This document shows positions 14,714 through 25,205 of a stretch of DNA of 64,000 bases, one piece after another. The stretch is from Pseudomonadota bacterium (lineage in GTDB: Bacteria > Pseudomonadota > Gammaproteobacteria > Xanthomonadales > SZUA-38). The stretch's first letter is position 1. The number at the start of each line of letters is the position of its first letter. Location of the stretch: contig JBCCCR010000006.1 in the NCBI GenBank assembly GCA_039033415.1, positions 1 through 64,000 of the forward strand, in the 5' to 3' direction. A model generated the notes under the pieces. The model worked only from the letters and a program-made list of their open reading frames with translations, had not been told where the DNA came from and did no database searches. A program made the position numbers and the translations under genes.

Positions 14714-15724
14714 TCAGTCAGAGAATTGATCTTTGTGTTTCAGGCGATGCTGCAGCCACTGCCAGGCGGTCTCGATCAGCGGCTCGATCTCCAGGTATTC
14801 CGGTTCCCAGCGCAGCCGATTGTGAGCGCGGGTCGCGTCAGCGACCAGTTTGGGCGGATCACCGGGTCGCGCTGCGCCGTCGACCACGGGGATATCCTTG
14901 CCCGTCACCCGGCGCGCCGCATCGATCACCTGCCGCACGGAATAACCGCGACCCATCCCAAGGTTATAGGTTTGGGTGCCGCCACCGCCGTCAAGGGTTT
15001 CCAGCGCCAGGACATGCGCTTTTGCCAGATCGTTCACGTGGACGTAGTCCCGAATGCACGTGCCGTCCTCGGTATCGTAGTCCTGCCCGAACACCGTAAC
15101 GTTCTCCTTAAGCCCGGCAGCCACCTCGAGGAGCAGCGGAATGAGGTGGGTCTCCGGCTCGTGCAGCTCCCCGATGTCACCCTGCGGGTCCGCGCCGGCT
15201 GCGTTGAAATAGCGCAGCGAGGCCGACTTGAGGCCATAAGCCGAACCGTAGTCGCGCAGCGCCTGTTCGATGACCAGCTTGGTTCGGCCGTAGGGGTTAA
15301 TCGGGAACTGCGGGTGCGCCTCGGGAATGGGGATCAGGCGGGGTTCACCATAGGTGGCGCAGGTGCTGGAGAACACCATCTTGTCGACCTTGTGACGCCG
15401 CATGCTGTCGAGCAGGTTCAGCGTGCCAACCACGTTGTTCCGGTAATAGCGCTGCGGGTCTCTCACCGATTCGCCGACATAGGCCAACGCTGCGAAGTGG
15501 ATCACCGCAATCGGCTGATACTCGACCATCACCCGGTCGATCACCTCCGGCATCAGCAGGTCGCCCTTGATCAAGGGACCCCATTTCACGGCCCACCGAT
15601 GGCCGGTCGACAGATTATCGAGGACCACCGGGCGATACCGCGCTCGCTTGAGGACCTTGCAGGTGTGGGACCCGATGTAGCCGGCGCCGCCGGTCACCAG
15701 AACTGTGGGTTTGCCGTCACTCAT
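14714..15724 (-). CDS. galE: UDP-glucose 4-epimerase
   Basis: A 336-residue extended short-chain dehydrogenase. GGAGYIGSH (about 12-20) binds [12 protein letters not shown] supplies the catalytic Ser/Thr, and [13 protein letters not shown] contains the YxxxK pair. [16 protein letters not shown] and [14 protein letters not shown] are classic GalE segments. It interconverts UDP-glucose and UDP-galactose in the cytoplasm, supplying galactose for EPS. ATG 15724 is used because the conserved N-terminus ([13 protein letters not shown]) begins there; it overlaps the decarboxylase stop by 8 nt. It is last in the ugd-uxs-galE run. Confidence 0.93.
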
Positions 15725-16697
15725 CGCCATTGCCCAGCAGCCGATCGAAATACTCGATGGTTCGGCCCAGGCCCTGCCGGAGCTCCACCTTCGGCCGCCA
15801 GTCAAGCGCCTGCTCGGCCAGCTCGATCCTGGGCTGACGCTGGGTCGGATCGTCCTGCGGCAGCGGACGGTATTCGATGGGGCTACTGCTGCCCGTCAGC
15901 TCAATCACCAGCTCCGCCAGCTCCCGGACGGTGAACTCACCCGGATTGCCGATATTGACCGGCCCGACAAAGTCTTCGGCCGAGCGCATGAGCCGCAGCA
16001 GCCCGTCGATCAGATCGTCCACATAACAGAACGATCGGGTTTGGCTGCCATCGCCAAACAACGTCAACGGCTCGCCGCGCAGCGCCTGGACCACAAAATT
16101 CGACACGACCCGACCGTCTGATGGGTGCATGCGTGGCCCATACGTGTTGAAAATCCGAGCGACCTTAATCGGCAGCGCGTGCTGCCGGTGATAGTCAAAA
16201 AACAGCGTCTCAGCACACCGTTTTCCCTCGTCGTAACACGACCGAGGCCCGATCGGATTCACCCGGCCCCAATAGGATTCGGGCTGCGGGTGCAGTTCGG
16301 GATCCCCGTAGACCTCGCTGGTGGATGCCTGGAGGATACGGCAGCCCAGTCGCTTGGCCAGACCCAGCATATTGATGGCGCCGTGGACGCTGGTCTTGGT
16401 GGTCTGCACCGGGTCACTCTGATAGTGCACGGGCGACGCTGGACAGGCGAGATTATAGATCTCGTCCACCTCAACGTAGAGCGGAAAGGTTACGTCGTGA
16501 CGCAGCAGCTCAAAACTCGAATGATCGAGCAGATGGCGAATGTTGTCTTTTGTGCCGGTAAAAAAGTTGTCCAGGCAGATCACGTCCGCCCCGGCCTCCA
16601 GCAGCTTCTCGCAGAGATGTGAACCGAGAAAACCGGCGCCGCCCGTAACCAGCACCCGCCTCCGGGTGTGATAGCGGCGGCCTTCCGGACTGGTCAC
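15717..16697 (-). CDS. UDP-glucuronate decarboxylase (UDP-xylose synthase)
   Basis: A 326-residue SDR enzyme. GGAGFLGSH (about 19-27) binds NAD; the SCYDEGKR segment (about residue 150) holds the YxxxK pair. [50 protein letters not shown] and [15 protein letters not shown] are hallmark segments of the UXS family. It converts UDP-glucuronate, made by the preceding ugd product, to UDP-xylose, a likely EPS precursor. It overlaps ugd by 4 nt. UXS and related UDP-GlcA enzymes such as epimerases are hard to separate by eye, but these motifs fit UXS best. Confidence 0.9.
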
Positions 16698-18043
16698 GCC
16701 GGCGCTCCTGGAACGGCAACGCTCGCGCCTCGGCCAATCGCGTAGTAGGCAAAACCCTTGCTGGCGGCGTGATCCGGATCATAGAGATTGCGTCCGTCAA
16801 AGATCACCGGCGCCCGCAGCAGGCCCGCCAGCCGCTCAAAATCTGGCGACCAGAAGCTGCGCCACTCGGTCACGATCACCAGTGCATCCGCACCGTCGGC
16901 AGCCTCATAAGCGTCATCGCAGAGCACCAGCGACGGGTGATCACCGTAAATCCGCTGGGCCTCTTCACCCGCCTCCGGATCGTAGGCACGAACCGTGGCA
17001 CCAGCGGCCCACAACCCTTCCATCAGTGTGCGGCTTGGCGCCTCGCGCATGTCGTCCGTATTCGGCTTGAACGCGAGCCCCCAGAACGCAAAGGTTTTGC
17101 CCTCGAGACTGCCGAAATGTGCCCCGATCTTGCCCAGCAGCACCGACTTCTGATCCGCATTGACCGCCTCAACCGAGTTGAGAATGCGTGCCTCGTAGCC
17201 CACTTCCGCCGCGGTCCTCGACAGCGCCTGCACGTCTTTCGGAAAACAGGACCCGCCATATCCGCAGCCCGGATAGATGAACGAAAAGCCGATCCGGGGA
17301 TCGGACCCGATGCCCCGGCGAACCTGCTCGACGTCAGCGCCGACGCGCTCAGCAAGATTTGCGATCTCGTTCATAAAAGAGATTTTGGTTGCCAGCATCG
17401 CGTTGGCGGCATATTTGGTCAGCTCCGCCGAACGAATATCCATGGTGATGATCTTGTCATGGTTGCGATTGAACGGCGCATAAAGGTGTTTCATGCGGGT
17501 CAGCGCGTGCTCGTCGTCGCCTCCGAGCACAATTCGATCAGGCTTCTGGCAGTCTTCGATCGCCGCCCCTTCTTTCAGAAATTCGGGATTCGAAATCACC
17601 CAGTAGTCGATCTCAGCACCGCGCGCCTGCAGCTCAGCGCCCATGGCCTGGCTGACCTGGTCGGCGGTCCCCACAGGCACCGTCGATTTGTCGACGACAA
17701 TCTTTGGCTGATCCATGTGCTCGCCGATCGTCCGCGCGACCGACAGGACGTACTGCAAATCGGCGCTACCGTCTTCATCTGGCGGCGTTCCCACCGCAAT
17801 AAACTGAAACTCGCCGTGGCGAACCGCGCTGGCGGCATCGCTGGTAAACGCCAAACGACCGGCCTTTGCATTGCTGGACACCAGGTGCTCCAGCCCCGGC
17901 TCGTAGATAGGTAGCTCGCCGCGGTTGAGGCCCGCAATTTTTTCTTCGTCCACATCCACGCAGACCACGTGGTTGCCCGCTTCTGCGAGACAGGCTCCCG
18001 TGACCAGACCCACGTACCCGGATCCAAATATCGTGACTTTCAA
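16694..18043 (-). CDS. ugd: UDP-glucose 6-dehydrogenase
   Basis: A 449-residue enzyme oxidising UDP-glucose to UDP-glucuronate with two [13 protein letters not shown] (7-16) is the dinucleotide loop, KSTVPVGT a central motif, [11 protein letters not shown] the substrate segment, and [14 protein letters not shown] (about 258-271) holds the catalytic Cys near residue 266. The start is TTG 18043: AGGA lies about 8 nt upstream and the protein starts at the conserved [11 protein letters not shown]. It heads the ugd-uxs-galE run and is divergent from the lasso locus, with only 57 bp between start codons. Confidence 0.93.
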
Positions 18044-18100
18044 AGCTGAGTTCCTGGTAGATAATGCCCAGGCGTCAATGGTAGAGGTTAGTAAGACGGA
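18044..18100. promoter_or_regulatory. Short divergent promoter region, ugd / lasso locus
   Basis: These 57 bp separate the TTG start of ugd (leftward) from the GTG start of the first lasso-locus gene (rightward). It contains TAGATAATG at 18058-18066, a possible rightward -10, but no good -35 at the right distance, and AGGA of the ugd ribosome site. Promoters for both directions must lie here or reach into the coding ends, so the two operons may be regulated together. Assignment is tentative. Confidence 0.35.
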
Positions 18101-19180
18101 GTGAAACCCGACCCGCAGGCATTCCAGGAGTCCGCAGCAAGAGCGCTGCAACGCGTCCCGGCTGACCGGCCGGTCTCGTTCGACTGGCTGGAGCAGCATG
18201 GGCTTCTCGGCATGGCGTGCGCGTGGGCTAACGAATTGGATCTGCCGACGGACCTTCGCGAAGACCTCCAGGCTTGGCGCAGCGCCTATGCCGCCCAGTG
18301 GCTGAGCTGGCAGCAGTGCTGGCCAGAGGCGCTGGCCGCCCTGGAGGCGCCGCTCGTGCTTAAGGGCGCGGCGCTAAATACCTGGCTCTACCCGGATCCG
18401 ACCCTGCGACCGGTGGGCGACCTGGACATTCTCATCAACTCAGCTGATCGCGAGGCGGCGTGCGACGCCCTGCTCGCCCAGGGCTACCACCCCGAGCTTG
18501 CGGTGGACGGAGACCTGGTGATGACCCAGCAGCGATTTACGCTGGACAACCATCACGGCACCACGTGCCATCTGGATCTTCACTGGCAGAGCAGCAATCG
18601 GTCGGAGCTTGCCGCAGCGCTTTCTTACGAGGCGCTCATCAATCTGAGTGAAGAAGCTTCCCCTGGCCTGAGGGTTCTCACGCCGGCGGCCGCCTGGCTG
18701 CATGCCGCCGCGCACCTGCTGGGTCACCACGCGGATCGACCCGCGATGAAGTGGCTGCTCGACCTGCACCTGATCTGGGAGCTCTTGTCCCCCTCCCAGC
18801 GGTCTGACCTCGTCGAACTGGCAACGAGACTTGGCTTAGCGCCAATCGCCAGCGCGACGCTCGAGCTTTGCTCGGATACGCTAGGCACCCGTTTCTCCGA
18901 GACCGCGCGACACCGCCTGCTGGCCGGCGCACGGCAGCGAACCCGCCACTACGTGTCCGGCCGCTCAACCCTGCTGCAGGACCTGCGCGCACTGCCCCGC
19001 TTCCGCCCCCGCCTACGATATCTTCGGCAGCTGGTTTTTCCGTCGCGCCGCTTCATGGACGCCAGGGGCTTTGGCGGCCACCCGCTCGGCTATCTGCGTC
19101 GGCTGGCCGGAGGCTTGGCGAAGGCGCTGAACCGCGCTCTCGACCGGGGGCGGGCGGACAGCAGGGATCCGAGATGGTAA
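18101..19180 (+). CDS. Nucleotidyltransferase-family protein of lasso-peptide locus
   Basis: A 359-residue protein. [20 protein letters not shown] followed by VGDLDILI is the signature of the NTP_transf_5 family (KG...YP...R..GD-x-D-I-L), with the two Asp as likely metal ligands. TCHLDLHW and the [20 protein letters not shown] region give further polar, metal-type residues. These proteins accompany some lasso-peptide clusters with HprK-like kinases and may tailor the peptide by nucleotidyl or related transfer, but the reaction here is unknown. It starts at GTG 18101 with a weak ribosome site, and its end overlaps the cyclase start by 7 nt. Confidence 0.75.
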
Positions 19181-20961
19181 GCGGCGCGCTGCTCGCGAAA
19201 ATCCATCGTGACCCTGAGCCCAGGAGAAACGACCCAGCAGCGCAGCGGGCCTTCGATGAGCGCCTGGCGCGAGCCCGACTCCGGCTCGATCAGCCTCAGA
19301 AATGTTTCGCGTGGCAGGGCCTCCGTGTCGGCGCACTGGGGCATCCCCTGCGACCGGAAGCGAAGCATGATAACGAAGACTTCGAGCCGCTGATCGAGCT
19401 CGACAGTCGCCACGTCGGGCTGGTGTGGGGGCAGCTCGATCCCGACGGGCCGACGACCCGGGAGGCGCTAGAGCTGTTGGCAGCGCGCGGCCCGCAGGTC
19501 GCCGAATGGTTCAGCGGCAGCTATGTCATGATGCTGATCGATCGGGTCGAGGGGACGCTGCGGCTACTGCGAGATCCGCTGGGGACCCGCGGGGCGTTTA
19601 TTGCGGAAACCGAGGACGCCCGCTGGGTGGCCACCGACGAGCGCATGCTGTGGCCGGATCAACCGCAGCCGGAGCCTGCCTACCTCGCAAGCGTCTTCGC
19701 CGCCGAACCGCCGCCACCGTCACTGTCGCCCATTGCCGGCGTGAGTTCGCTGCCGCCGGGTCACTGGCTGCAGCTTACGCCCGACACGAATCCAACGCCG
19801 CAACGCTATTGGCGCTTTCACTACGACCCGACGGTGCGGCGGCTCAGCGCCGCCGACCAGCGAGAAGGACTGCTGGAAAACCTGCGCAGCGCGGTGGCAG
19901 CCACCCGGTCTGACGGTGATGCCGTCGCCATCAGCGGCGGACTGGATAGCCCGGCGGCGGCAGCTCTGAGTGACCTGCGCCAAGCCCTGACCTATCGGAT
20001 CGAGCGCTGGCCGGAATGTGGGGAACATAACCTGGCGAAGCGGGTTTGCGATGACCTAGGGCTGGCGCTGACCGAAATCGATTGTGACGATGCTGAGCCG
20101 CTCGGCGACGCTTTTGAGAAGACGCCGACCCTCGCCTGCGGTCCAGAGCTGGATGCGTACCAGGCTTTGCGCTGGCGGCTGGCGGTGAGGGCGCGTCAGC
20201 AGGGTCACCGGGGCGTGCTGACCGGCGACTTTGCCGACCAGCTTTACCTGGGGTATCCGTATGCGCTTCGGGACAGCTTTTTTCGCCAGCCGCTGGCGTC
20301 TCTGGGCACGCTGGCCAAACGCTTGCGGGCAACGCCAGCCTTCTGGCGGGACCCAACGGTGCGCCGGCTGGGTCCGCTCAACGGCATTTCCCGCGGCCGG
20401 CGAAGCCCCGTTCGCCCCTGGCTGACGGACCATAGCCGCTCCCTGTTGACAACCGCCGGGCGCGACCACCCGATTTACGGACCGATCACCCAGATCGATC
20501 GCGTGGAAGGCTGCCTCAACAGCAGCACCGCCCGCGCCGCACACCTGGGGTACCTGCAGGGGCTGGCCTGGGGCGTGGAGTATCGGTTTCCTTACCGGCA
20601 GTGGAAGCTGGTGCAGTTTTTCCTCAGCCTGCCGGCCCACTGCTGGCTCGATCCACACACCGGCGCCACCAAACCGGTCACGCGCCAGGCGATGCGGGGA
20701 CGCCTGCCTGCTGCCGTGACGGAGCGGTTGGCCAAGACCAGCCTCGAACCGATGTTTCGCCAGGCGGTCCTCAAAGACCATTGGGACAAGGTGCAGGAGG
20801 CGCTGAGCCTCGCCGAACATTGGCAGCCTTATATAGACCCCGCGTGGCTCGAGGAGCGTCAGCAGAAAAACGACTGGAGCGGGTTCAGCCTCTACGTGCT
20901 GTGGTGCTGCGTCAGTGCAGCAAGATGGCTACAGAATTTCACCGGAAGACACAGAGGCTGA
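19174..20961 (+). CDS. Lasso peptide cyclase (asparagine synthetase homologue, C protein)
   Basis: A 595-residue asparagine-synthetase-like protein. Residue 2 is Val, not Cys, so the glutaminase activity of true AsnB is lost, as in lasso cyclases. SGGLDS (about 254-259) is the intact PP-loop that adenylates a carboxylate. In lasso biosynthesis the C protein activates the Asp/Glu side chain of the core and closes the macrolactam with the core N-terminus. ATG 19174 has GGGA six nt upstream and overlaps the preceding stop. The identity is supported by the adjoining precursor, kinase, B2 and B1 genes. Confidence 0.88.
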   Translation: MVSGALLAKIHRDPEPRRNDPAAQRAFDERLARARLRLDQPQKCFAWQGLRVGALGHPLRPEAKHDNEDFEPLIELDSRHVGLVWGQLDPDGPTTREALELLAARGPQVAEWFSGSYVMMLIDRVEGTLRLLRDPLGTRGAFIAETEDARWVATDERMLWPDQPQPEPAYLASVFAAEPPPPSLSPIAGVSSLPPGHWLQLTPDTNPTPQRYWRFHYDPTVRRLSAADQREGLLENLRSAVAATRSDGDAVAISGGLDSPAAAALSDLRQALTYRIERWPECGEHNLAKRVCDDLGLALTEIDCDDAEPLGDAFEKTPTLACGPELDAYQALRWRLAVRARQQGHRGVLTGDFADQLYLGYPYALRDSFFRQPLASLGTLAKRLRATPAFWRDPTVRRLGPLNGISRGRRSPVRPWLTDHSRSLLTTAGRDHPIYGPITQIDRVEGCLNSSTARAAHLGYLQGLAWGVEYRFPYRQWKLVQFFLSLPAHCWLDPHTGATKPVTRQAMRGRLPAAVTERLAKTSLEPMFRQAVLKDHWDKVQEALSLAEHWQPYIDPAWLEERQQKNDWSGFSLYVLWCCVSAARWLQNFTGRHRG

Positions 20962-20997
20962 ATTGACTTCGGTAGGGTCAGCCGCTACAAACGAGTC

Positions 20998-21153
20998 ATG
21001 AAATCCCGAGAACCCGAGCGCAAGCCGGCGGCCAAGACGCGAAAACCCTACCGCCGGCCCGAGCTGATCCCCCGCGGCGACGTCCGCGACGTCACCCTCG
21101 GTCCAACGCCCGGCGTTGGCGAAAGCGGCAATCCGGGGACGCTGCGTCCCTGA
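20998..21153 (+). CDS. Lasso peptide precursor (A peptide)
   Basis: A 51-residue ORF in the 200-bp gap between cyclase and kinase. Residues 18-27, YRRPELIPRG, match the YxxPxLxxxG leader motif recognised by PqqD-like B1 proteins. Thr33 is at the -2 position before the predicted cut after Leu34. The predicted core is residues 35-51, GPTPGVGESGNPGTLRP: Gly1 and Glu8 can form an 8-residue macrolactam, leaving a 9-residue tail. The cyclase stop is 36 nt upstream and the kinase starts 5 nt downstream. The only in-frame start after the upstream stop is ATG 20998; its ribosome site is weak. The cleavage site and ring are inferred from family rules. Confidence 0.88.
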   Translation: MKSREPERKPAAKTRKPYRRPELIPRGDVRDVTLGPTPGVGESGNPGTLRP

Positions 21154-21158
21154 GCGGC

Positions 21159-22121
21159 ATGGCCGCACGAACCGGGATCGACACACCCATATTCATCGGC
21201 GGTCGCACGTCAGGTTCCGCGCTACCCGACCATCATTACCGCATCGCCGGCCTCGATCTGGCGATTGACCAACCGCTGCCCCATTTCAAGCCTTTTCCTT
21301 TACCGACTGTCGAGTCAGGGTCGGCACGGTTGAGCGTCAGAACTCACGATGGTGCCGACGAGACACAGCGGTCACCGGCGGCCTGGCAACGATCATCCCG
21401 CGGACTGATCGGCCGACGAGAGCGTGACGTTACGATTAGTGGAGCTTCTGCCGCCCTGACGTTAGCGATCGAAGACCTCGGCAACTTTCGAATCGAGCTC
21501 CCCGACCAGCTGTGGTACCCAGCGGGCCTGTCCGCTGAGGCGTTGACCGAAGCGCTTTGCGGCCCCCTGCTCCCGCTGGTGCTCAGCCATCACGATACCT
21601 ACTGTTTGCACGCAGCGGCATTTCGCCACCGCAGCGGCCTCACGCTGCTGCTGGGTTCCAGCGGCGCGGGAAAAACGACCCTGAGCCGGGCGCTCGCCGA
21701 AGCCGGCGCTGGACTCTGGGCTGACGACACCGTAGCGGTGCGCTGTGGCGGCGCTTCCGCGATCTGCCCGGGTCACTACCCACAGCCCAAGTGGCCCCGC
21801 TGGCGAGCGACACTCACGGAGCCGGAGTGTGTGATCACGCACCTGGTGTTCCTGCAGCCCTATAAAACGGGAGACGTTGCGCCCGGCGATGGGTCAGAGC
21901 AAGTCACGGTGACCCCGCTCACGCCGGCTGAGGCCACGTTAGGCGCGGTCGAACACACGCTGACCGGCCGGCTCTTTTCGCCGGAAGGCCTGCGGCGCCA
22001 CCTGCAATTTGCTGCGGCGCTGTCGAAGCGAACCACCGCGTGTCGCCTGAGCTACCCCCAAGAGCCCGCCGCGCTTCCGTCGATGGTGGATTGCCTGAAG
22101 GCCGTAACCCCGTGGCGCTGA
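21159..22121 (+). CDS. HprK-like serine kinase of lasso-peptide locus
   Basis: A 320-residue protein with an HPr-kinase catalytic core. GSSGAGKT (about 166-173) is Walker A; LWADDTVAVRCGG follows with the acidic pair seen in HprK enzymes, and DTYCLHAAAFRHRSG precedes it. In the paeninodin type of cluster such kinases phosphorylate the C-terminal Ser of the lasso precursor. Here the core ends in Pro, so the target would have to be Thr3, Ser9 or Thr14, or another substrate. It starts 5 nt after the precursor stop and its stop overlaps the B2 start. An EPS-associated HprK-related role is an alternative. Confidence 0.82.
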   Translation: MAARTGIDTPIFIGGRTSGSALPDHHYRIAGLDLAIDQPLPHFKPFPLPTVESGSARLSVRTHDGADETQRSPAAWQRSSRGLIGRRERDVTISGASAALTLAIEDLGNFRIELPDQLWYPAGLSAEALTEALCGPLLPLVLSHHDTYCLHAAAFRHRSGLTLLLGSSGAGKTTLSRALAEAGAGLWADDTVAVRCGGASAICPGHYPQPKWPRWRATLTEPECVITHLVFLQPYKTGDVAPGDGSEQVTVTPLTPAEATLGAVEHTLTGRLFSPEGLRRHLQFAAALSKRTTACRLSYPQEPAALPSMVDCLKAVTPWR

Positions 22122-22495
22122 TCAGCCGCATCCGAGCCGCTTGGCTGGTTTCGCGGGCCGCATTCCGCCTGCGCCGGCGCGGATTCCAGACCGCAGCTGC
22201 CGAGTTGCTGGGTCCACCGCCCGGGAGGCTTAAGCGCGCCTGGGGAAGCGACTTGTCGCCGCTAGAGGCTTTTGAACGAACCGCCTTTTTGCCCTGGTCC
22301 ACCTGCCTCAGCCGCTGCGTGGCAGCCGCTTCGCTCCTGCGCCAACGCGGCTACCCGGCCCAGCTTCGGATCGGTACCCAGGTACAGCCGGCATTCTCGG
22401 CCCACGCGTGGATTACGCTTCATGACCGGAGCTGGTCGGAGGGTGATCATCACCCGCTTCAGGGTGCGGGCACCCGGGACTTGTCGCCGCCATGA
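22112..22495 (+). CDS. Lasso peptide leader peptidase (B2 protein)
   Basis: A 127-residue transglutaminase-fold protease. Cys65 in PWSTCLSRCVAAASLLRQRG, His98 in FSAHAWITLHD and Asp105 form the expected Cys-His-Asp triad. In lasso biosynthesis B2 removes the leader, using B1 to bind it. The start is GTG 22112: it overlaps the kinase stop by 10 nt and the protein begins MALISRIRAAW, a normal family N-terminus. An upstream in-frame ATG exists only inside the kinase gene. The downstream PqqD gene overlaps by 4 nt. Confidence 0.86.
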   Translation: MALISRIRAAWLVSRAAFRLRRRGFQTAAAELLGPPPGRLKRAWGSDLSPLEAFERTAFLPWSTCLSRCVAAASLLRQRGYPAQLRIGTQVQPAFSAHAWITLHDRSWSEGDHHPLQGAGTRDLSPP

Positions 22496-22776
22496 CCAGC
22501 AGCGGGTATGTCCTGCCGGATCACGTGATGTGTCAGCGTACGGGTGACGCGATGGTGCTTCTCGATACCCAAAAGGGGCAGTACTTCGAGCTGAACGACA
22601 CCGCCTGCGCGGCGTTTCTGAACTTGCTGGAAGGGAAGACTCTGACGGGAGCCGCCGAACGCCTGGTGGAGGAGTTTGACGTCACCGAAGCTCAGGCCCT
22701 GAAGGACGTGGAGACGCTGCTGGAGGATTTGCTGACCAGCGGCCTGGTGTGCCAGGCCGCCGATCAGGCTGAGTAG
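22492..22776 (+). CDS. PqqD-like RiPP recognition element (lasso B1 protein)
   Basis: A 94-residue PqqD-family protein: MVLLDTQKGQYFELNDTACA is the beta-sheet edge that binds leader peptides, and the C-terminal helices (AAERLVEEFDVTEAQALKDV) form the winged-helix face. As B1 it should bind YRRPELIPRG of the precursor and deliver it to B2 and the cyclase. It starts ATG 22492, overlapping the B2 stop (ATGA). It is the last gene of the locus; no exporter or isopeptidase follows. Confidence 0.9.
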   Translation: MTSSGYVLPDHVMCQRTGDAMVLLDTQKGQYFELNDTACAAFLNLLEGKTLTGAAERLVEEFDVTEAQALKDVETLLEDLLTSGLVCQAADQAE

Positions 22777-22822: not shown

Positions 22823-23527
22823 TCAGCCCTCGATACCGAGAAGCTCCACCTTAAAGACTAGCGTTGAGTTGGGGCCGATCTTGCCCTGGTTTCGTCCGCC
22901 GTAGGCCAGATCTGAGGGAATGCAGAATCGATACTCGCTACCCACCGGCATCAGCTGAAGCCCTTCGGTCCAGCCGGAAATCACTCGATTGAGCGGGAAC
23001 ACAGCCGGCTCGCCGCGGCTGTAGGAGCTGTCGAATTCGGTCCCGTCGATCAGCGTGCCCTGGTAGTGCACCCGCACCGTGTCCGTCGCCTTCGGGCGGG
23101 GGCCGTCGCCGGCGCGCACCACCTCGTACTGCAGTCCCGATGGGGTCACCTGAACACCATCGCGCTGCGCGTTCTCATCCAGGAAGGCTTTGCCGATCTT
23201 CAGATTGTTTTCTGCAGCGTTGGCAAGCTCGAGCCGCTTACGGTCCATCTCTTCGGACTGCAGACGCGTCAGCGTCGCGGCAGCCGCGTCAGACTGGGCT
23301 GTGGAGAGCTGGCTGTCCTTGTCCGCCATCGCGTCCATTGCGCCGGCGGAGAAAGCAGACGGATCCAGGTTCTTGATGCCCATCTCCTGCATACGCACGC
23401 CGATGTCATAGCCCATTTTGTAGCTGAGCTCCGCATCTTCGCCCTGGATATCCTGGGCGACAGCGTTGACGGCCACCAAGGCCGCTGACGCGCAAACGGC
23501 GTGAAAGAGGGTTTTACGTGCGTTCAT
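22823..23527 (-). CDS. FKBP-type peptidyl-prolyl isomerase, exported (FkpA/Mip-like)
   Basis: A 234-residue protein with an N-terminal signal peptide (TLFHAVCASAALVAVNAVAQ), a helical dimerisation domain (about 25-120, starting at ELSYKMGYDIGVRMQEMGIK), and a C-terminal FKBP domain. The last has VRVHYQGTLIDGTEFDSSY and the substrate segment YRFCIPSDLAYGG. It catalyses proline isomerisation and assists folding of periplasmic or outer-membrane proteins. ATG 23527 is preferred: GGAG lies 6 nt upstream, and an earlier in-frame ATG would spoil the signal peptide. It converges on the lasso locus. Confidence 0.9.
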   Translation of the reverse strand: MNARKTLFHAVCASAALVAVNAVAQDIQGEDAELSYKMGYDIGVRMQEMGIKNLDPSAFSAGAMDAMADKDSQLSTAQSDAAAATLTRLQSEEMDRKRLELANAAENNLKIGKAFLDENAQRDGVQVTPSGLQYEVVRAGDGPRPKATDTVRVHYQGTLIDGTEFDSSYSRGEPAVFPLNRVISGWTEGLQLMPVGSEYRFCIPSDLAYGGRNQGKIGPNSTLVFKVELLGIEG

Positions 23528-23640
23528 AGTGGCTCCATCTGCCAAAAAAGGGGTGCATTGTGCCTTAGAGCGCGCATTTGTAAAAACGTTGCATCGGCCG
23601 GACCGTGACTCCTGGCACCCTGTCTCAAGGGCTCAATGGG

Positions 23641-23944: not shown

Positions 23945-24364
23945 ATGCGCCGCCACTGGAACGACAGCCAGCCTATCTACGTGCAGTTGCGCGATCACGC
24001 CATCGCAATGATTCTCGATGGCGTGCTCGGCGACGGCGACCCGCTGCCGTCCGTCCGCACCGTCGCAGCAGACTTTCAACTCAACCCGATCACCGTTTCA
24101 AAAGCGTACCAGAGCCTGGTTGACGACGCGCTGGTGGAGCGCCGCCGCGGTCTGGGAATGTTCGTACGTACGGGCGCCAGGGAGCGCCTGCTGGTGGCAG
24201 AACGGGAGAAATTTGTGGAAAAGGAGTGGCCCGGCGTCCTGGCAAAAATTCAGCGCCTGGGACTCAGCGCAGACCAGCTGATGGCCGGGGGGACCGGTCA
24301 TCAGACGGGCAACGGAGACAACGGAGAATCATCAAAAGGGGAAGCGGATGTCAGCGATCGTTAA
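23945..24364 (+). CDS. GntR-family regulator, YtrA subgroup
   Basis: A 139-residue regulator. The N-terminal winged helix covers about residues 5-75: PIYVQLRDHAIAMILDGVLG, DPLPSVRTVAADFQLNPITV and VERRRGLGMFV. The short C-terminus with no large effector domain marks the YtrA subgroup, which usually controls adjoining ABC transporter genes. I use ATG 23945 because the HTH begins immediately after it; the frame extends upstream but into the previous gene. It overlaps the ATPase gene by 17 nt. It likely binds the inverted repeat at 23641-23660. Confidence 0.88.
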   Translation: MRRHWNDSQPIYVQLRDHAIAMILDGVLGDGDPLPSVRTVAADFQLNPITVSKAYQSLVDDALVERRRGLGMFVRTGARERLLVAEREKFVEKEWPGVLAKIQRLGLSADQLMAGGTGHQTGNGDNGESSKGEADVSDR

Positions 24365-25205
24365 CGCGAACGGGCTGCGAAAGAAATACAAGTCGTCGGT
24401 AGCGCTGGACAACGTCAGTTTTCAGATCGAGCCAGGCCGCATCGTTGGCCTGATCGGTCCCAACGGCGCTGGCAAGACCACCGCCCTCAAGGCCATGCTC
24501 GGCCTGACCAGCTTCGACGGCGAGCTGTCGATCCTCGGAATGGATCCGATGAAGCAGCGCCACGAACTGATGGATCAGGTGTGTTTTATTGCCGACGTTG
24601 CGGTCCTGCCCCGGTGGCTGAAGGTGCATCAGGCGGTGGACTTTGTCGAAGGCGTTCACCCGCGCTTTTCGCGGGAGCGGGCGCTCGGCTTTTTGTCGAA
24701 AACCAAGATCAAGCCCGAGTCCAGGGTCAAAGAGCTGTCGAAAGGCATGATCGCCCAGCTGCATCTGGCCCTGGTGATGTCCATCGATGCCAAGCTGCTG
24801 GTGTTGGATGAACCCACCCTCGGCCTCGATATCATCTATCGGAAAGAGTTTTACTCCAACCTGCTGAACGACTACTTCGACGAAGAACGCACGATCATCA
24901 TCACCACCCACCAGGTGGAGGAAGTGGAGCACATCCTCACTGATCTGATGTTCATCAAAGACGGCAAGATCATCATCGACGCCAGCATGGAGGACATCGC
25001 TGAGCGCTTTGTCGAGGTGATGGTGGCGCCGGAGTCAGCGGACGAAGCCCGGGCACTGAAGCCGATCCACGAACGCTCCGTGTTTGGCAAATTCGTCTTT
25101 CTCTATGACAACGCAGACCAGCTGGCGCTTGCTGAGCTGGGAGAACTGCACAACCCGAGCATCGCGGACCTGTTTGTCGCCACCATGAAGGACGAAGCCG
25201 CATGA
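24348..25205 (+). CDS. ABC transporter ATP-binding protein (YtrB-like)
   Basis: A 285-residue ATPase. GPNGAGKT (about 37-44) is Walker A and LLVLDEPTLGLD is Walker B, with the switch His in TTHQVEE. The signature is LSKGM rather than LSGGQ, a known variation in this subfamily. It pairs with the ABC-2 permease that follows (ATGA overlap). Such GntR/ATPase/permease units often respond to envelope stress or peptide antibiotics, but no substrate can be named. Confidence 0.9.
   Translation: MSAIVNANGLRKKYKSSVALDNVSFQIEPGRIVGLIGPNGAGKTTALKAMLGLTSFDGELSILGMDPMKQRHELMDQVCFIADVAVLPRWLKVHQAVDFVEGVHPRFSRERALGFLSKTKIKPESRVKELSKGMIAQLHLALVMSIDAKLLVLDEPTLGLDIIYRKEFYSNLLNDYFDEERTIIITTHQVEEVEHILTDLMFIKDGKIIIDASMEDIAERFVEVMVAPESADEARALKPIHERSVFGKFVFLYDNADQLALAELGELHNPSIADLFVATMKDEAA

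Follow-up and report, generated by a model that had tools for sequence, protein, structure and literature searches.

What does the operon around a 51-codon reading frame, set between a cyclase-like and a kinase-like gene, produce? A sequence-only reading of the window (the whole 64,000-nucleotide stretch of DNA analysed here) had proposed that this frame encodes an unusually short precursor of a lasso peptide with an eight-residue ring. The frame very probably does encode the precursor of a small lasso-type peptide, and the product of the operon is probably a class II lasso-type peptide, a member of a conserved family, that is phosphorylated at Thr3 and closed by a Gly1-Glu8 ring. We favour this explanation because of the content of the operon, the purifying selection that the core shows, the constancy of positions 3 and 8, the conserved kinase residues and the precedents of BsfK and PsmN. 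The operon is of a known kind; what goes beyond the earlier reading is a family with a near-invariant ring, a candidate phosphosite inside that ring, the pairing of residues 3 and 8, and the dispersal of the pathway genes.

The six genes, in the order N-C-A-K-B2-B1, run in one direction over 18101-22776 of the forward strand with short gaps or overlaps (Table 1). The B2 and B1 models score above their cut-offs and the Asn-synthase-like C adjoins A, which agrees with the proposed lasso-type precursor and its predicted Gly1-Glu8 ring. C matches the lasso cyclase models NF033561 and NF033535 (E 4e-19 and 1e-17) far under both cut-offs, and for its relatives in families f8 and f232 the best model is NF033535, likewise under the cut-off. 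K matches Hpr_kinase_C (E 0.007) and TIGR04352 (E 0.00095), both under cut-off. The B2 translation contains a Cys and a His as in the transglutaminase-like fold, and the solved chain nearest to B1 is TfuB1 (6jx3; E 1.7e-9); searches of solved structures with K alone and with C alone returned nothing useful.

Table 1. Genes of the operon and features of the precursor, in window coordinates
Feature	Coordinates	Strand	Description
N	18101..19180	+	Nucleotidyltransferase family NTP_transf_5; PF14907 E 4.6e-33, above cut-off; GTG start (ORF listing)
C	19174..20961	+	Asn-synthase-like, lasso macrolactam synthetase homologue; PF00733 E 1.2e-23, above cut-off
A	20998..21153	+	Precursor peptide, 51 residues; conserved in congener and further relatives
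YxxPxLxxxG leader motif (YRRPELIPRG)	21049..21078	+	Residues 18-27; Tyr -17, Pro -14, Leu -12
Predicted core GPTPGVGESGNPGTLRP	21100..21150	+	Synonymous-only codon changes against L020; column counts from 25 cores
Thr3 (candidate phosphosite)	21106-21108	+	
Glu8 (predicted lactam acceptor)	21121-21123	+	
Ser9 of core	21124-21126	+	
K	21159..22121	+	P-loop, HprK-like peptide kinase homologue; curated models weak
B2	22112..22495	+	Leader peptidase; NF033537 50.9 bits, cut-off 33; GTG start at 22112 chosen by the analyst
B1	22492..22776	+	PqqD-like leader-binding protein (RRE); NF033530 75.6 bits, cut-off 70

No exporter (D) gene was found within the operon; an ABC ATPase gene (24348-25205) comes after a GntR-type regulator, beyond a convergent FKBP-type isomerase gene. 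This isomerase gene (22823-23545, reverse strand, in the window) converges on the operon end in the window, G001, G002, G003 and G012 (L021-L024), and its being common to five genomes suggests an old shared location. Upstream, a UDP-glucose/GDP-mannose dehydrogenase-type gene and two epimerase-family genes point the other way (14714-18103, reverse strand). These sugar-nucleotide neighbours of N may hint at a sugar donor for N, or may be a mere polysaccharide locus. N adjoins C in all four genomes of the window's family, and lies beside an epimerase-like gene, identified by eye, in two f8 genomes too (L219, L223). A promoter scan found no promoter, and terminator-like sites were no commoner than in shuffled sequences.

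The precursor consists of the leader MKSREPERKPAAKTRKPYRRPELIPRGDVRDVTL and the core GPTPGVGESGNPGTLRP, with Thr33 at -2. Its coordinates, 51 codons, YxxPxLxxxG motif, Thr at -2, core, Gly1 and Glu8, and nine-residue tail (SGNPGTLRP) are as first read, and the mass of about 1573.8 Da then given for the cyclised, unphosphorylated core was recomputed as 1573.7849 (computed [M+H]+ 1574.792). The check proposed with that reading, a search for homologous short frames at syntenic places, found them in a congener and in other genera. In the congener (G001; Lysobacterales MAG JANQOZ010000031.1, locus L020) the orthologue is syntenic and 82% identical, with an identical core. The two genes differ at 21 codons, of which 13 fall in residues 1-22 (nine non-synonymous, four synonymous), whereas all eight in residues 23-51, five of them in the core, are synonymous; whole-gene NG86 values are dN 0.122 and dS 0.379, and the core is under purifying selection. 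Two further genera of the window's family carry the cores GPTPGVGESGNPTNFRP and GPTPGVGESGNSGSLRP, the G003 orthologue has Phe in place of the window's Leu at core position 15, and the YxxPxLxxxG positions are unchanged among the aligned relatives of A. The precursor had been called unusually short, but nine aligned precursors, the window's included, measure 51-63 residues; both its length and its aromatic-poor tail are ordinary within the family.

The extent of this family was explored from a sample independent of the precursor, in which a curated B2 model matched 101 of 398 genomes of the order. The flanks of the B2 and C-search loci, 120 loci in all, were then searched using profiles built up from the genes of the window's operon. 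The resulting precursor profile, A3, matched 36 of the 398 order genomes at E <= 1e-4 (the window's genome included), five of 369 in a class sample (the window, three clear members in f232, which belongs to another order, and one weak partial match) and two of 398 in a phylum sample (the window and one weak match). The three f232 genomes and 30 of the 36 from the order, 33 in all, yielded 25 distinct cores; left out of this count are six genomes of the order (G036, G037, G148, G162, G224, G344), two weak matches from the class and phylum samples (G1116, G525) and the additional copies that G065, G047 and G1120 carry.

Across these 25 cores the ring hardly varies. Gly1, Gly5, Gly7 and Ser9 occur in every one and Gly10 in 24. 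At position 3, 19 cores have Ser and six have Thr; position 8, the predicted ring acceptor, is always acidic (Asp in 19, Glu in six), in line with the eight-residue ring first proposed. Throughout the 25, Ser3 is accompanied by Asp8 and Thr3 by Glu8, and the Thr3/Glu8 type occurs in f232 as well as in the family of the window. The chance value of this pairing, 5.6e-6, ignores relatedness, and one or two changes could explain it; the excluded outliers break it (G036 Thr3/Asp8, G224 Ser3/Glu8, G148 Ile3/Asp8), so that it holds for the inner family only. In family f9 (L033/L184 in G036; L128 in G148), the related cores GGTPGSGDSG and GGISGSGDSG carry long acidic tails, behind a leader one residue shorter. 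The predicted Gly1-Glu8 ring has the size of that in microcin J25 and other lasso peptides with eight-residue rings. The microcin J25 type has a fused B, an exporter D and another leader, and is not known to involve a kinase.

The tail is more variable. The cores are 17-27 residues long, with Arg or Lys at residue 16 in 16 of 25 and Pro at residue 17 in 12; four end in Thr and none in Ser. Some cores have two tail Cys (GGGESGC...GGCP; ...CPGCP; L173, L174, L030, L261), possibly a disulfide-bearing or metal-binding variant. The lack of aromatics in the window's tail had been regarded as unusual, but ten of the 25 distinct cores share it. A tail as small and flexible as SGNPGTLRP, with nothing bulkier than Leu15 and Arg16, could be left unlocked, which would make the product a branched-cyclic, unthreaded macrolactam, and the aromatic-free tails elsewhere in the family fit such a product. 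We regard it as unlikely, however, as homologues of the known lasso B1, B2 and C are all present and the Phe15 of the G003 orthologue is what one expects of a plug.

His151, Ser168, Gly169, Gly171, Lys172, Asp189 and Asp190 of K are invariant over 13 aligned family kinases, and the first loop Gly is Ala in the kinases of L144 and L169. Together with Gly166 and Thr173, these residues stand exactly three positions past the residues named for BsfK of Bradymonas sediminis, Thr173 falling where BsfK has Ser170; this likeness in spacing was read by eye against the positions named in PMC10368454 and is one of named positions only, not of sequences. The kinase profile A4 finds HprK (1jb1) with E 0.0013 across 42 positions, amid many other P-loop proteins, and an AlphaFold model of K from two sequences (pLDDT 31) was unusable. 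In a tree of the order-wide loci, the kinases beside this precursor family form one clade of 23 tips (support 0.988), three of which have no precursor nearby. Four loci with W-xx-P leaders fall outside it, and three of their candidate precursors end in Ser. When f232 and G065 are added, the support of the joint clade is 0.184, so it is not leaned on here. Searches around the kinases of L165, L151 and L082 yielded no precursor; a precursor match lies elsewhere in the genomes of L165 (G037) and L082 (G047), and G051 is absent from the matches.

According to PMC10368454, BsfK phosphorylates Ser3 of BsfA, accepts the S3T variant and is strict for core residue 3; it is inactive on the core alone, the leader being needed, and B1 boosts the reaction, while the mature Bsf lasso was never detected. 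Paeninodin and pseudomycoidin carry the phosphate on a C-terminal Ser, and PsmN adds a hexose to the phospho-Ser of pseudomycoidin (PMC9266682 and, for the phosphate, also PMC8498205). As far as these sources extend, characterised lasso phosphorylation is C-terminal in reviews, with BsfK as the exception (PMC9266682, PMC8498205, PMC10368454). Given the precedents of BsfK, paeninodin and pseudomycoidin, the mature peptide likely bears phospho-Thr3, and N is possibly a glycosyl-type tailoring enzyme that would further decorate this residue; more generally, N may be a tailoring enzyme working on the phosphate. The residues required by BsfK are all present in K, so the phosphorylated [M+H]+ of 1654.7585 is the likelier species, and the mass first given is right for the unphosphorylated core but incomplete. 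Phosphorylation of the paeninodin kind was ruled out because the window's core ends in Pro.

The systems described so far resemble the window's in part. First, the Bsf cluster shares A, B1, B2, C, K and N genes, a predicted ring from Gly1 to residue 8, Ser or Thr at core residue 3 and the lack of a C-terminal Ser, and some Bradymonadales clusters akin to Bsf are also without D or N; in contrast, the window has Thr at -2 (Ile in Bsf, Ile or Val in Bradymonadales clusters), Glu8 rather than Asp8 and no D gene, and the Bsf host is classed with the Deltaproteobacteria (PMC10368454). Second, pseudomycoidin (psm, Bacillus pseudomycoides) likewise has a kinase and an NTP_transf-type N beside the lasso genes, but there a C-terminal Ser bears the phosphate and the hexose. 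Third, the paeninodin/SyanA type shares the HprK-like kinase gene and the split B1/B2, and its kinase acts on the linear precursor, whereas its site is the C-terminal Ser that 0 of 25 family cores possess. Among open-access titles and the beginnings of abstracts, with subscription journals mostly outside that scope, no description of this precursor family or of dispersed lasso genes was found.

Ser9, the first residue past the ring, is as invariant as residue 3 and might be the residue that K phosphorylates in an otherwise identical pathway; it is present in all 25 distinct cores and in L128, a kinase locus whose residue 3 is Ile (it also has Ser4) and whose kinase lies outside the 0.988 clade. 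We judge this improbable, since the kinase loci L092 (GGSQDAKEG), L150 (GGSSGKSEH) and L077 (SGSNTGSDN) have Ser3 but not Ser9, and BsfK is strict for residue 3 (PMC10368454).

With Thr3 as the preferred site, we infer the cleavage, the lactam, the phosphosite and the reaction of N from characterised relatives, as follows. B1 would bind the YxxPxLxxxG leader, and K, aided by B1, would phosphorylate Thr3 on the linear precursor. B2 would then cleave after Thr-Leu (Leu34), and C would link Gly1 with the side chain of Glu8 to form an eight-residue ring, leaving a nine-residue tail with Leu15 and Arg16 as the likely plugs; N may finally attach a further group, perhaps a sugar, to the Thr3 phosphate. 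Counting against this scheme are the scores of K and C under curated cut-offs, the invariance of Ser9, the Ile3 of L128, the failure to detect a mature lasso for Bsf, and the Ile, not Thr, at -2 in Bsf.

The pathway genes are not always together. Within 1.5 kb of A, eight of the 33 loci have C, K, B2 and B1 (G000-G003, G012, G013, G022, G017), two have C, K and B1 (G068, G075), two have C and K (G006, G040), and eight have C alone (G065, G044, G030, G061, G047, G1028, G1120, G920); in 11 f8 genomes K and B2 are there but C is missing, and G166 and G176, with loci at contig ends, have K near A and likewise no C. The assemblies are drafts throughout, with contamination of 7% in G065 and 8% in G191; the loci of G044 and G061 stop at contig ends, and those of G030 and G047 were covered only within 1.5 kb of A. 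In wider flanks of G065, f232 and most f8 loci, the missing genes were still absent. K occurs elsewhere in all four C-A-only genomes searched (G1028, G1120, G920, G065); in the f232 genomes the unlinked K adjoins N and B1 (3/3), and a lone B2 is present in two of the three. In the G920 genome no lone-type B2 was found, its B2 match resembling another type. In f232 the lasso genes occupy as many as three separate loci, one with C-A, one with K, N and B1, and one with a lone B2, the split-gene loci being L173-L175, L178, L179, L181, L186, L187 and L195-L197.

In the f8 genomes G010, G028, G107, G112, G132 and G147, the single cyclase match lies on a contig other than that of A. The cyclase gene of G112, read by eye, comes after mreC, mreD, a penicillin-binding protein gene, rodA, mltB and rlpA, and that of G010 comes after an rlpA-like gene, its best model being a lasso cyclase under the cut-off. 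At the f8 loci L034 and L028 the sole cyclase-like gene (L034:3904-5568, reverse; L028:1296-2969, forward) stands behind an rlpA-like gene, apart from A-K-B2, that of L034 being preceded, by eye, by the rod-shape genes mreC to rlpA.

Whole-genome searches of 25 precursor genomes found PF14907 (N) in 20 and a B1-like gene in 23, the f8 B1 matches being weaker; such PF14907 or PqqD-like genes away from the precursor need not serve the lasso pathway. The idea that N accompanies only Thr3/Glu8 cores, which arose because N is missing from clusters of the Ser3/Asp8 group, was dropped on the same count. Of 151 relatives, all 18 that have a cyclase match carry the precursor, compared with 10 of the 133 that lack one, and a B2 match is present in 31 of 36 precursor genomes, relatedness being uncorrected in both; A3 was built from loci reached via C and B2, so these co-occurrence figures are only partly independent. 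The genes, dispersed in several families, are apparently kept. The kinase and cyclase trees recover family-level groups such as f8, f11 g13 and f232, and their backbones are poorly supported, so that vertical inheritance of the system is no more than suggested.

An ordinary secreted lasso antibiotic, with K and N dispensable and a mature product free of phosphate, would accord with the weak recognition of K by curated models and with the fact that, to our knowledge, most characterised lasso peptides are unphosphorylated. It is very unlikely: the kinase residues named above do not vary over the 13 kinases, K lies with or near A in 25-27 of the 33 loci (25 within the 1.5-kb flanks) and was found unlinked in the four C-A-only genomes searched for it, and the operon lacks an exporter gene. 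That A is a chance reading frame, as its shortness and the leader model NF033521 (16.9 bits, not reaching the cut-off of 19) could be taken to mean, is ruled out for practical purposes by the place, frame and core shared with other genera and by core changes in the congener that are synonymous only.

The pattern G-x-[ST]-x-G-x-G-[DE]-S is near constant over at least six families and two orders. A constant ring with dispersed but kept genes fits a cellular molecule (a signal, a cofactor-like compound or an envelope factor) better than a fast-evolving antibiotic. We therefore suggest, tentatively and with less confidence than we attach to the product itself, that the window holds a member of an old, largely vertically inherited gammaproteobacterial phospho-lasso system making a conserved cellular molecule. 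If so, lasso pathways exist that cluster-based mining cannot see, and their producers are missed, and the near-invariant ring and the dispersed, kept genes would point to an endogenous role for a lasso peptide. The family itself, whose candidate phosphosite lies inside the ring in evolutionary pairing with the ring-closing residue, allows a direct test of whether phosphorylation precedes cyclisation and how the two are coupled.

A TonB-dependent receptor-like gene, recognised by eye, lies directly upstream of C-A at two f232 loci (L178:3467-5680, L179:3260-5503). A second N-K-B1 triad of another kind is present at L228 (G001:C5), L229 (G000:C22) and L230 (G003:C104), and is perhaps the 'HPr-rel-A' cassette named in NCBIfam.
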